From Nitrospinae bacterium RIFCSPLOWO2_12_FULL_45_22 (GTDB taxonomy: Bacteria; 2-12-FULL-45-22), in NCBI GenBank assembly GCA_001803565.1, contig MHDQ01000293.1, positions 1-6,342 of the forward strand: a DNA stretch of 6,342 nt, in the 5' to 3' direction. Of the stretch, positions 2,713 through 6,342 are shown piece after piece. Position numbers and translations under genes: made by a program. Each line of letters starts with the position of its first letter. Within the stretch, counting starts at the first letter, position 1. The notes under the pieces are model-generated. The model was not told the origin of the DNA, made no database searches, and saw only the letters and a list, made by a program, of their open reading frames with translations.

Positions 2713-2792
2713 TGAGTATTGCCGATAAAAGATTTTAGGGCAGATTTCATTATGCCATTTCTGTTCCTCGATAAGAAGAGACTATTAAAATT

Positions 2793-2801
2793 AAAGGAGG
2801 T
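2793..2801 (+). promoter_or_regulatory. Strong Shine-Dalgarno AAAGGAGGT fixing the start at 2809
   Basis: This near-perfect anti-16S match lies 7 nt before ATG 2809. That ATG is followed directly by a canonical Sec signal peptide. The longer in-frame extension to 2719 would place 30 residues in front of the signal and start before the predicted transcript. Confidence 0.85.
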
Positions 2802-2808
2802 AAATCAG

Positions 2809-5800
2809 ATGAAGAGTCATCTTCCAAAAAATTTAATCTTTTCCTCTACCTTTACCTTTCTAATTCTCTCCCTATTTATATTGGCCTCCTTTAACCCCAT
2901 CCAGGCCAGTACCAGCTCAATAAAGCTATCCTGGGAGCCTAATACTGACGCTGATTTAGCAGGATATAAGCTCCATTATGGGACTTCCTCCGGGAACTAT
3001 ACCAATACCATAAATGTAGGTAATGTGACCAGCTATGACCTATCTGGTCTGGAGAGTAGCAATACTTACTATATTGCTGCCACTGCTTATAATAGCTCTT
3101 CCTACGAAAGTATGTACTCCAATGAAGTAAGCGCGACTATTGGTAGTTCTGTCGATATTCCAACCGATGACCCACCCCCGGCTGATGATCCACCTCCTAC
3201 TGAAACCCTACCCCCGGCTGATGATCCACCTCCTACTGAAACCCTACCCCCGGTTTCATCCCTAGACCCCTCTGGCAAGCCCAAATCCCTTACCAATCCG
3301 TACGGGGTATATATTTGGCAGGATACCGATGACCTGGAGTGGCACCTCTGGACCACCTATGCCCCTAATGGCTTCAAGGATAACTATAAAGGGACAACTA
3401 TGACCCCGGTATCGGGCAAGATCACCCAGGCCAGCTATTATTCCCCTGAAGATTCTTATGAGACCATAACCTGGGATGCTGCCAGGGTTCATATAGACAA
3501 TATGGACGTCAATGGTACCGGTGGTATAGATGGGGTAGACTTCAAGGTAGATGGCTCCGAGGTAAGCTTCAAGATCGTCTTTTCAGGCTCCATCTCCCCT
3601 AAAAACATCTTTATCGGGGCCAATCTTGCTAACCCCGACTCCACCAGCTTTACCCTGAAAGGGCTAGTTACCGGAGAATCACCTCCTACCAATAGTCCAC
3701 CCCCGGCTGATGATCCACCTCCTACTGAAACCCTACCCCCGGCTGATGATCCACCTCCTACTGAAACCCTACCCCCGGTTTCATCCCTAGACCCCTCTGG
3801 CAAGCCCAAATCCCTTACCAATCCGTACGGGGTATATATTTGGCAGGATACCGATGACCTGGAGTGGCACCTCTGGACCACCTATGCCCCTAATGGCTTC
3901 AAGGATAACTATAAAGGGACAACTATGACCCCGGTATCAGCTAAGATCACCCAGGCCAGCTACTATTCCCCGGATTGGTCGGGAGAGACCATCACCTGGG
4001 ATGCTACCCGAATCCATGTTGACAATATGGACGTCAATGGTACCGGTGGTATAGATGGAGTAGACTTTCAGGTAGATGGTGCTGAGGTGAGCTTTAAGAT
4101 CGTCTTCTCTGGCTCTATCTCCCCTAAAAATATCTTTATCGGGGCCAATCTTGCTAACCCCGACTCTACCAGCTTTACCCTCAAAGGACTGGTTGCCGGG
4201 GAATCGCCCCCTACGGAGACACCGCCACCAGCTTCATCCATAGACCCTTCGGGCAAGCCCAAATCCCTTACCAATCCCTACGGGGTATATATCTGGCAGG
4301 ATACGGATGACCTGGAGTGGCACCTCTGGACCACCTATGCCCCTAATGGCTTCAAGGATAACTATAAAGGGACAACTATGACCCCGGTATCGGGCAAGAT
4401 CACCCAGGCCAGCTACTATTCCCCTGAAGATTCTTATGAGACCATAACCTGGGATGCTACCCGCATTAATATCAACAATATGCAGATCAATGGTACCGGT
4501 GGTATAGACGGAGTAGACTTCAAGGTAGATGGCTCCGAGGTTAACTTCAAGATTGTATTTAATGGTTCTATCTCTCCAGATAATATCTTTATCGGCGCCA
4601 ACCTGGCTCACCCTACCTCCACCAGCTTCACCCTCAAAGGTAAGACCTTAACCAGCAATCAATTGTCATCCTTGTCTTATGTTTACGGGAATGAATTGCC
4701 CCTACCTCCTCCTCCCCCTTCCTATAAGAAGAATATTCCCGTTAGTTCCCTGATCTTTCCCTTAGTGATATCAGACAGTCAATTCAGCACCACCCTAAGC
4801 CTGATAAATCCCTCTGCCTCTACCTCTATTACCATGACCCTATACAGCTCTGATGGGTCCTCTATCTCTACCTCTACCTCTGCCTTTCCTGCTGGAGAAA
4901 CCATGGAAGGATCATTGACCGATTTCTTCCCTAATATTCAGCAGCCTACAACACAGAACGTAGAACGTAGAACCCAGAACGCAGAAGGCGGAATATTCTG
5001 GATAATGATAGAATCTACCGAAAAGATTAAGGGTTTTGCAACTATTAGCCAGTCATCAGTCATCAGTCATCAGTCATCAGTTTACCAGCTACCTGCAATA
5101 GCTTCTGGGGCTAACACCCTCTATTTTCCTCTTGTAATGTCCGATGAAGCATGGCAGACACATTTGTCTATTCTGAATCCAAATGATGAAGAAGCCCCTT
5201 TGGTACTAACTCCCTATGATAAGGATGGCTATCCCTTAGCAGAGTATTCCAGCGTTGGCTCTTTGAAAGGGAAGGTCCTCTCTATTAAATATGTCCAGGA
5301 ATATTTTGTTGACTCTCTCCCTCCTGGCACAGCCTGGATAAAACTGGAGAGTGATAGTAAAATCATAGGAGTGGAGACAATTTCCACTATGGATAACCAC
5401 AATATTTATATGCTCCCAGCCGCAGTCAATGGCTATTCTACCCTGAATTTTCAGCTCCCTGTAATGGCTGTAGGAGAAGATTACGCCCAACGCAGAACGT
5501 CGAACGTTGAACACCAACAATCGAACGTCGAACGTCAAACGTCGAACGGATATCTTATCCTGTTGAATTTAAGCTTGCAGCAGGGCGCCACTTTCTCTAT
5601 AAATGCCTATGATAGCGATGGCAACCTGGTAGGATACAGCTCATCTATTGGCATTGCCCCGGGAGCACTAAAATTTGATACCATTTCACACTATTTTGAT
5701 GGATACTTACCCCCACAGAGTACCGGGATTAAAATAGACTCTGATGGCGCTCTCAATGGATTTGTACTATTCGATGGGAAAATCATTTTCCCCGAAAACC

Positions 5801-5850
5801 AATTACCCACTCAACTACTCGACAACTCAACCTCAACAGCGAGGAGGTAG
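2809..5850 (+). CDS. Secreted multidomain repeat protein (FnIII, triplicated 137-aa module, beta-repeat C-terminus)
   Basis: This is a 1013-residue exported protein. A Sec signal peptide (1-33; basic MKSHLPK, hydrophobic core, cleavage after NPIQA) is followed by a fibronectin type III domain (about 37-111: IKLSWEPNTDADLAGYKLHYG to YSNEVSATI). Pro-rich linkers with PADDPPPTETLP units follow. Three 137-residue modules occupy 149-285, 324-460 and 475-611. Each has GVYIWQDTDDLEWHLWTTYA and GIDGVDF; I recognise no family for them, though their Trp/Tyr content suits glycan binding. After a PPPPPP linker come three divergent beta-type repeats of about 105-130 residues (about 642-763, 764-871, 873-995). 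The first two show FPLV-SD...LS-L-NP cores, the third a weaker match. Three heptanucleotide arrays interrupt these repeats. No transmembrane anchor, LPxTG or PEP-CTERM ends the protein. It is probably co-transcribed with the glycoside-hydrolase-like gene 3 nt downstream under the sigma-54 promoter. A role in polysaccharide binding is an inference. Confidence 0.85.
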   Translation: MKSHLPKNLIFSSTFTFLILSLFILASFNPIQASTSSIKLSWEPNTDADLAGYKLHYGTSSGNYTNTINVGNVTSYDLSGLESSNTYYIAATAYNSSSYESMYSNEVSATIGSSVDIPTDDPPPADDPPPTETLPPADDPPPTETLPPVSSLDPSGKPKSLTNPYGVYIWQDTDDLEWHLWTTYAPNGFKDNYKGTTMTPVSGKITQASYYSPEDSYETITWDAARVHIDNMDVNGTGGIDGVDFKVDGSEVSFKIVFSGSISPKNIFIGANLANPDSTSFTLKGLVTGESPPTNSPPPADDPPPTETLPPADDPPPTETLPPVSSLDPSGKPKSLTNPYGVYIWQDTDDLEWHLWTTYAPNGFKDNYKGTTMTPVSAKITQASYYSPDWSGETITWDATRIHVDNMDVNGTGGIDGVDFQVDGAEVSFKIVFSGSISPKNIFIGANLANPDSTSFTLKGLVAGESPPTETPPPASSIDPSGKPKSLTNPYGVYIWQDTDDLEWHLWTTYAPNGFKDNYKGTTMTPVSGKITQASYYSPEDSYETITWDATRININNMQINGTGGIDGVDFKVDGSEVNFKIVFNGSISPDNIFIGANLAHPTSTSFTLKGKTLTSNQLSSLSYVYGNELPLPPPPPSYKKNIPVSSLIFPLVISDSQFSTTLSLINPSASTSITMTLYSSDGSSISTSTSAFPAGETMEGSLTDFFPNIQQPTTQNVERRTQNAEGGIFWIMIESTEKIKGFATISQSSVISHQSSVYQLPAIASGANTLYFPLVMSDEAWQTHLSILNPNDEEAPLVLTPYDKDGYPLAEYSSVGSLKGKVLSIKYVQEYFVDSLPPGTAWIKLESDSKIIGVETISTMDNHNIYMLPAAVNGYSTLNFQLPVMAVGEDYAQRRTSNVEHQQSNVERQTSNGYLILLNLSLQQGATFSINAYDSDGNLVGYSSSIGIAPGALKFDTISHYFDGYLPPQSTGIKIDSDGALNGFVLFDGKIIFPENQLPTQLLDNSTSTARR
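3253..3663 (+). repeat. 137-residue module, copy 1
   Basis: This 411-nt unit runs from Val-Ser-Ser-Leu-Asp-Pro to Thr-Leu-Lys-Gly. Together with the preceding linker, 3172-3413 reads identically to 3697-3938 (242 bp, period 525 nt). Its middle part carries the PEDSYET variant, shared with copy 3 and not with copy 2. Confidence 0.9.
3778..4188 (+). repeat. 137-residue module, copy 2
   Basis: This is another 411-nt unit. The first third is identical to copy 1, but the middle reads PDWSGET in place of PEDSYET and carries VSAKITQ in place of VSGKITQ. Its 3' third is close to copy 1 with scattered silent changes. Confidence 0.9.
4231..4641 (+). repeat. 137-residue module, copy 3
   Basis: This is also 411 nt. 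It follows a shorter linker (GESPPTETPPPAS) that lacks the doubled PADDPPPTETLP units. It shares PVSGKITQASYYSPEDSYET with copy 1 but is the most diverged copy towards its end (INNMQINGTGG, NGSISPDNIF). Confidence 0.9.
4947..4988 (+). repeat. Heptanucleotide array (CAGAACG/TAGAACG type), six units in coding sequence
   Basis: Five clear 7-bp units run from 4954 to 4988 (CAGAACG, TAGAACG, TAGAACC, CAGAACG, CAGAAGG), with one degenerate unit TACAACA before them. They encode TTQNVERRTQNAEG in the first C-terminal beta repeat. The two sister repeats lack this segment. Confidence 0.85.
5050..5081 (+). repeat. Heptanucleotide array CAGTCAT x4.6 in coding sequence
   Basis: Four exact CAGTCAT units plus CAGT occupy 32 nt and encode the heptapeptide-periodic SQSSVISHQSSV in the first C-terminal beta repeat. 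The unit differs from that of the other three arrays, so it is a second repeat class. Confidence 0.95.
5484..5546 (+). repeat. Heptanucleotide array (CGTCGAA type), about nine units in coding sequence
   Basis: From 5491 to 5546 there are eight 7-bp units. CGTCGAA occurs three times, with the variants CGCAGAA, CGTTGAA and CGTCAAA and two decayed central units. CGCCCAA at 5484 may be a ninth. The array encodes QRRTSNVEHQQSNVER and onward in the third C-terminal beta repeat. At this point the second repeat aligns without a gap once the array is removed. Confidence 0.85.
5841..5847 (+). promoter_or_regulatory. Shine-Dalgarno GAGGAGG for the downstream secreted hydrolase
   Basis: The site lies 6 nt before ATG 5854 and inside the last codons of the upstream gene, whose TAG is at 5848-5850. 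This arrangement supports tight operon coupling of the two secreted proteins. Confidence 0.8.
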
Positions 5851-5853
5851 ACA

Positions 5854-6342
5854 ATGTTAAGAAAGAAATTGTTCTCCATTCTTTGTCCGTTCTTCATCCT
5901 GGGTCTAACGTTGAACGTAGAACGCATAACGTTACCCGTTTCACCTTTATCCGCCTATGCCGCAACCTCAGGGGTCTCTATAATAGACGGTGAAGACTGG
6001 TCATTACCTTCCTGGGTAACTAGCTGGTCGCCTTATGGGGGGATATACTGGCAGTATCCGTCAAGAATGTCATATGTTACTAATCCAAATTTAGATGTTT
6101 TTGCGGCTAATTTTAACTGGAAGGACATTCATATAAAAGACGGAACTTATGATTGGTCAACAATAGACAATAAATTAACGCAAATAGCAGGTGCCGGCAA
6201 AAAAGGAATGTTGATATGGGAACATAGAAGGGTAGAGAATATACCTCAATGGGTTAAGGATAAATACCCATCGACAACTATTTACGGCAATTGGCTTTTC
6301 GCGTATTGGGAACCTGGTCCTGTTTCAGAACTTAAGAAATTC
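5854..6342 (+). CDS. Secreted TIM-barrel glycoside hydrolase-like protein, N-terminal part (cut by window end)
   Basis: The first 163 residues of an open frame that leaves the window. A Sec signal peptide (MLRKKLFSILCPFFILGL onward, cleavage near AYA-A at about 36) is interrupted by a heptamer array that encodes LNVERIT. The mature start is rich in Trp. The segment NFNWKDIHIKDGTYDW, then STIDNKLTQIAGAGKKGML and IPQWV, follows the W-x-x-I/L-E-P-x-x-G-x-Y-x-W-x-x-I-D...A...GK pattern. That pattern marks the first strands of GH42/GH-A-type and DUF4832-type barrels. The exact GH family and the catalytic glutamates cannot be seen because the C-terminal part is missing. It is translated from a strong ribosome site, 3 nt after the stop of the FnIII/repeat protein. 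This suggests that the two proteins act together outside the cell on a polysaccharide. Confidence 0.75.
   Translation, partial: MLRKKLFSILCPFFILGLTLNVERITLPVSPLSAYAATSGVSIIDGEDWSLPSWVTSWSPYGGIYWQYPSRMSYVTNPNLDVFAANFNWKDIHIKDGTYDWSTIDNKLTQIAGAGKKGMLIWEHRRVENIPQWVKDKYPSTTIYGNWLFAYWEPGPVSELKKF
5907..5934 (+). repeat. Heptanucleotide array (AACGTNG type), four units inside a signal peptide
   Basis: AACGTTG, AACGTAG, AACGCAT and AACGTTA follow one another with period 7. The outer units share AACGTT. Removing the 21 nt between them leaves the frame and restores an uninterrupted hydrophobic signal peptide (FFILGLTLPVSPLSAYA). Confidence 0.85.

Follow-up and report, generated by a model that had tools for sequence, protein, structure and literature searches.

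A heptamer array in a protein loop of a Nitrospinae bacterium as a candidate arm-type piece of S23p (PF05635) mobile elements

A tandem array of AACGTAG-type heptamers (array 1) lies inside an open reading frame of the 3.67-Mb draft genome of Nitrospinae bacterium RIFCSPLOWO2_12_FULL_45_22. We put at a little under 0.6 the probability that this array is an unpaired fragment, of the arm type, from a family of small mobile elements carrying S23p genes, and that it settled in a protein loop by the route of such elements. S23p, the protein of Pfam family PF05635, is the four-helix protein of 23S rRNA intervening sequences (IVS). Full membership of the family is not claimed for array 1, where an S23p gene and an inverted partner were both looked for and neither was found. 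The window, that is, the whole stretch of DNA analysed, comprises a complete contig of 6342 bp (Table 1).

Table 1. Positions, in the window, of the host reading frame, its C-terminal repeats and the four heptamer arrays
Feature	Position	Strand	Remarks
Host ORF	2719..5850	+	1043 aa; likely start ATG 2809
C-terminal repeat 1	4741..5103	+	holds arrays 1 and 2
C-terminal repeat 2	5113..5424	+	without array; internal comparison
C-terminal repeat 3	5437..5820	+	array 3 near start, none at the array-1 position
Array 1	4950..4991	+	six AACGTAG-type heptamers; codons 4948-4989 give TTQNVERRTQNAEG
Array 2	5050..5081	+	CAGTCAT heptamers, 4.6 perfect copies, QSSVISH peptide; later loop of repeat 1
Array 3	5489..5550	+	AACGTCG-type heptamers; near start of repeat 3
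Array 4	5907..5932	+	AACGTTG-type heptamers; near N-terminus of next ORF (5854..), in a putative signal-peptide region

The host protein and its contig

The host protein has a signal peptide-like start followed by an fn3 domain, three repeats of ~450 bp and three C-terminal repeats of ~105 aa. The ~450-bp repeats (3166-4640), of the 'DPSGKPKS...' type, encode DPSGKPKSLTNPYGVYIW... and proline-rich linkers, and their near-identity suggests a recent tandem duplication. Searches of the C-terminal repeats against Pfam, NCBIfam and PDB sequences gave only sub-threshold matches (DUF5719, E 7e-4, under its cut-off). When close relatives of the whole protein were sought among genome contigs, matches were confined to the N-terminal residues 33-107, in a Thermoplasmata MAG; a protein search in 60 relatives, from a collection holding just one of the same order, gave no match, and a paralogue was not found in the genome itself.

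Elsewhere in the contig, a perfect hairpin (CCCCCTATAATCTGATTG...CAATCAGATTATAGGGGG) and then two adjoining small palindromes (GGCACGAAT..ATTCGTGC and GCACGGAT..ATCCGTGC) occupy 1-60 and 95-150. The interval 743-1590 holds a Polbeta nucleotidyltransferase ORF and then an apparent partner gene, which seems to be interrupted at a short hairpin (CACTCTCTCT...AGAGAGAGTG) around 1350-1400; past this hairpin, reading resumes in a different frame, as judged by eye. An AbiEii-like nucleotidyltransferase ORF (Pfam E 2e-6) lies on the minus strand at 1599-2213. The window had no match in Rfam.

Extent and reading frame of array 1

The heptamer array that an earlier note had placed inside the ORF is indeed present: Tandem Repeats Finder reports 5.3 copies at 4950-4986, and lag-7 matching carries the array on to 4993. 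The interval given for it, 4947-4988, was off by one relative to the codons for the array peptide; the count of six heptamers holds. Read from 4950, the units are AACACAG, AACGTAG, AACGTAG, AACCCAG, AACGCAG and AAGGCGG, the sixth being decayed, and the edges of the array and of its codons lie ~2 nt apart.

A pure AACGTAG array would present TAG every 21 nt whichever frame is read. In array 1 both in-frame TAG slots are CAG, and TAG persists out of frame only; array 3 has TCG in all three of its in-frame slots. These substitutions show that coding has acted as a filter on the arrays. Array 1 contains no palindrome, no hairpin was found among arrays 1-3, and an RNA hairpin made by the window arrays was considered as a candidate and rejected since none was found. 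That the array is kept for a role in DNA or RNA, as a protein-binding or regulatory repeat, and is not a relic of insertion, finds a parallel in the upstream TAACTGA heptamer arrays proposed as translational control sites (PMC4679880). We consider such a role highly improbable here, as arrays 1-3 are degenerate, lie deep in coding sequence and not upstream of their own gene, and form no hairpin.

Array 1 as a loop insertion

Array 1 had been described as a clean insertion of 14 residues, exactly six heptamers. With F (DFFP / EYF / HYF) and W/G-I (FWIMIES / AWIKLES / TGIKIDS) as anchors, repeat 1 exceeds each of repeats 2 and 3 by 14 residues, so that the length difference stands; "clean" and "exactly" were overstated, because the boundaries are ambiguous and the length of the loop varies among homologues. 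It was also too strong to say that the repeats align without gaps only if TTQNVERRTQNAEG is removed: this cut is not unique, scoring 40 against 39 and 38 for two alternative 14-residue cuts. With standard gap penalties, and also in MAFFT with the array kept, the gaps fall elsewhere. An HMM showing one 14-aa insert was built on array-removed sequence, which makes its result partly circular, while an HMM built from repeats 2 and 3 only aligned poorly in the region and did not recover a single gap. The best estimate of the length is 42 nt, with a genuine margin of a few residues.

Repeats 2 and 3, which have no array, do offer the internal before/after comparison that had been proposed, but a weaker one than it looks because the repeats are merely ~30-35% identical. 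The search for an array-less homologue, also proposed earlier, succeeded, in that a profile search recovered distantly homologous domains with no array at this place from two other genomes (L037, L038). The segment is thus missing from both paralogous and homologous domains. In an AlphaFold model of repeat 1 from a three-row alignment (mean pLDDT 62), residues 63-83 are predicted as coil with strands on both sides, the second beginning at residue 84; the array corresponds to residues 70-83, where pLDDT is ~30. The assignment of the array residues to a core strand was accordingly rejected, and the conserved core strand that had been named as evidence against an insertion does not appear, in a model whose confidence is low. 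A single-sequence AlphaFold model of the whole C-terminal region has a mean pLDDT of 42, too low to be of use, and Foldseek of the repeat-1 model against the PDB returned nothing with E <= 0.001.

The reverse history, in which the long loop of repeat 1 is ancestral and the heptamers arose in place, or in which the loop shrank in the other repeats, would accommodate a repeat alignment that is not unique and a loop that differs by several residues among homologous domains at this site. It is nevertheless very unlikely in our judgement: the extra residues are missing from repeats 2 and 3 as well as from the distant homologues, the extra stretch is where the array is located, and the remaining arrays of the protein and the genome occupy other variable places. 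Overall, the reading of array 1 as a probable loop insertion is supported.

Heptamer arrays across the genome

Array 1 is not a product of chance, as 709 kb of sampled sequence contain 34 lag-7 segments with a score of at least 14 and an order-2 Markov shuffle contains none. Some of the sampled stretches were picked for their array hits, so that the density of arrays is over-estimated; the comparison with shuffles and controls is independent of this choice. In the same sample, lag 8 gave 16 segments and lags 5 and 10 none, and period 7 stands out over 5, 6, 9 and 10. Many heptamer families are represented (AACNTNG, TGACCAA, AGTGAGC, TAAATTC, GATCAGG and others), mostly in intergenic positions or at gene ends. 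An inverted partner no more than 700 bp away, or a hairpin formed by the array itself, was seen for at least 19 of the 34 arrays, against 1 of 34 control placements.

Some arrays lie within other protein genes. A CoA-enzyme activase gene (C225) contains an inverted heptamer pair inside its ORF, in frame; by BLASTP lengths, the array stretch accounts for 46-52 residues absent from seven full-length homologues of other families and 28 absent from an eighth, which is a better before/after case than the repeats of the window. In an oxidoreductase, an array lies between the Fer4_20 and Pyr_redox_2 domains. A 63-nt heptamer array with an open frame was also noted in the dnaX linker before the DnaX_C domain (L018 10734-10796).

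S23p genes between inverted arrays

Two inverted array pairs, ~400 bp apart, each enclose one gene, and both genes belong to PF05635 (23S rRNA intervening-sequence protein). Nine PF05635 genes are present in the genome. Eight of them are flanked left and right by 7- or 8-mer arrays that are inverted copies of each other, and the arrays of nearly every gene have a private repeat sequence. The association extends to 29 other genomes of different families: counted with one scoring scheme on the best-scoring PF05635 gene of each genome, arrays flank both sides in 17 of the 27 genes with full flanks and at least one side in 26. Control intervals 900-1200 bp away gave 2 and 8 of 31, respectively, and random intervals of the own genome had arrays on both sides in 4 of 1500 cases. 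The two arms of an element have equal period in 24 of 27 (7, sometimes 8 or 9) and match as inverted copies with a median score of 19 within elements versus 5 between them. Periods of 8 or 9, equal on both arms, were seen in elements L082, L096, L097, L100 and L106.

The same architecture recurs in 12 cyanobacterial plasmids from named hosts, with an inverted flank similarity of at least 13 in eight. S23p genes of cyanobacterial plasmids also lie within CRISPR-Cas operons (L134, L136, L138) (cas10-cmr3, cas6-cas4). The open-access literature, to which our search was confined, yielded no account of PF05635 genes being generally flanked by heptamer arrays.

Reciprocal empty sites in Nostoc plasmids

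The plasmids pNsp_c (Nostoc sp. ATCC 53789) and pC052_D (Nostoc sp. C052) have a common backbone of 89-99.7% identity, in which the S23p element follows the WP_104899637 gene in one plasmid and precedes that gene in the other. The two plasmids are thus reciprocal empty sites, each with ~420-500 bp of extra DNA where the other has an uninterrupted junction, and the gene between the two insertion sites is 99.7% identical. Both insertions (L129 1431-1933, L139 1438-1856) are located at stop/start junctions, where the start codon downstream is preserved. These sites show that the unit has moved and that S23p elements are mobile; S23p may be the agent of that movement. The upstream Nostoc arm ends in a TAAATG stop/start, which may couple the translation of S23p to that of the gene upstream.

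Origin of the window arrays

Arrays 1, 3 and 4 are tandem heptamer arrays of the arm type. Among the 27 arm pairs compared, their best match is to the arms of the PF05635 element on contig C92 (scores 21, 21.5 and 15, respectively). Array 2 belongs to a different heptamer family and has no close match, its top score among the compared arms being 12.5. The AAC arrays of the window share one orientation. No inverted partner for the window arrays lies near, the best inverted match in the contig scoring 9, and the contig has no PF05635 gene, all nine of the genome being on other contigs; it is therefore the heptamer family, by itself, that links the window arrays to the element. We also considered whether remains of a PF05635 gene might be hidden between the window arrays, and rejected this because the stretch consists of the C-terminal repeats.

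Array 1 could instead be an ordinary heptanucleotide microsatellite, grown by slippage in a permissive loop, its likeness to the arms reflecting a common mutational process. Heptamer arrays occur widely in the absence of PF05635, and many bacteria show an over-representation of heptamers (PMC4692102); some arrays are near-perfect (CAGTCAT, 4.6 copies), and copy number beside the Coxiella S23p gene differs by strain (PMC4990558). Arrays in this genome are, moreover, far more numerous than PF05635 genes, so that a self-sustaining slippage process is possible. We hold this origin to be unlikely, although it deserves serious weight. Arrays 1, 3 and 4 occupy non-corresponding sites within 1 kb and belong to one heptamer family, a pattern not easily obtained from independent slippage events. 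The excess of period 7 over its neighbours, the presence of inverted partners for about half of the arrays, a feature that slippage does not generate by itself, and the in-frame TAG that a growing pure AACGTAG array would meet in each 21 nt also speak against it.

The data presented above have led us to favor the origin of array 1 in the S23p element family. The full element would consist of a heptamer array, an S23p gene (PF05635) and an inverted heptamer array, with S23p perhaps acting on the arms to move the element and with the arrays lengthening or shortening through slippage or hairpin-templated copying. Solo arms may result from the loss of one arm or from a separate spread of arrays, and array 1 would have arrived by this solo-arm route, a single array settling between two strands of a putative secreted beta-sandwich repeat. 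The frame would have been kept since the array is 42 nt long, and the reading kept open by CAG in the units with an in-frame TAG slot.

A broader proposal is more tentative, and we give it somewhat less than an even chance: that PF05635 genes across bacteria lie at the heart of a hitherto undescribed class of mobile elements, with ends made of inverted 7-9-mer arrays whose sequence is private to each element and whose period and symmetry are kept. Empty inverted pairs and solo arrays, both of which the genome also contains, could then seed further arrays, in-frame insertions included.

Relation to known repeat systems

The IVS of Coxiella burnetii is a suspected mobile element with inverted termini and an S23p ORF, and three tandem GACAGAT heptamers, variable in number among strains, immediately precede the S23p start (PMC4990558). 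The elements described here resemble the 23S rRNA IVS in having a PF05635 ORF between terminal inverted repeats; they differ in lying outside rRNA, at gene junctions, and in having element-specific arms of 7-, 8- or 9-mer arrays. Array 1 departs further from the IVS, being located in a protein-coding ORF without an S23p gene, in a window free of Rfam matches.

Rickettsia palindromic elements (RPE) form families of ~150 bp with a conserved sequence and encoded peptide (PMC10969869). They are palindromic repeated DNA lying in frame in unrelated protein genes, whose products tolerate them, and the activase insertion resembles them in this. Here, in contrast, it is the tandem-array architecture that is conserved and not the sequence, and array 1 is single-armed and not palindromic.

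Known heptamer families include TAACTGA and GGGAATC arrays (PMC4679880, PMC4692102). The TAACTGA repeats of Beggiatoaceae and cyanobacteria are distributed genome-wide, mostly between genes, with some in ORFs at tolerant places, and present stops in every frame in one orientation (PMC4679880). They consist of one fixed heptamer, with no partner gene described, whereas the genome studied here has many degenerate families and an association with PF05635, and the units of the window are AACGTAG/AACGTCG and CAGTCAT. The tandem repeats within genes of Borgs add disordered segments and leave the frame unbroken (PMC9879509). Borg units are divisible by three; with a unit of 7, the frame is kept only by the total length of the array, and stops need purging.

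Significance

Proteins of PF05635 came to notice with the 23S rRNA intervening sequences, and to our knowledge no function has been established for them; we likewise know of no accepted origin for the abundance of heptamer arrays in bacteria. Linking PF05635 to the arrays makes both testable, since the arms define a possible target for S23p and reciprocal empty sites show movement. Ends whose sequence varies from copy to copy while period and symmetry persist are unlike those of ordinary transposons, suggesting that copying rewrites the arms. Finally, the in-frame insertions show a route by which arrays give proteins new segments.
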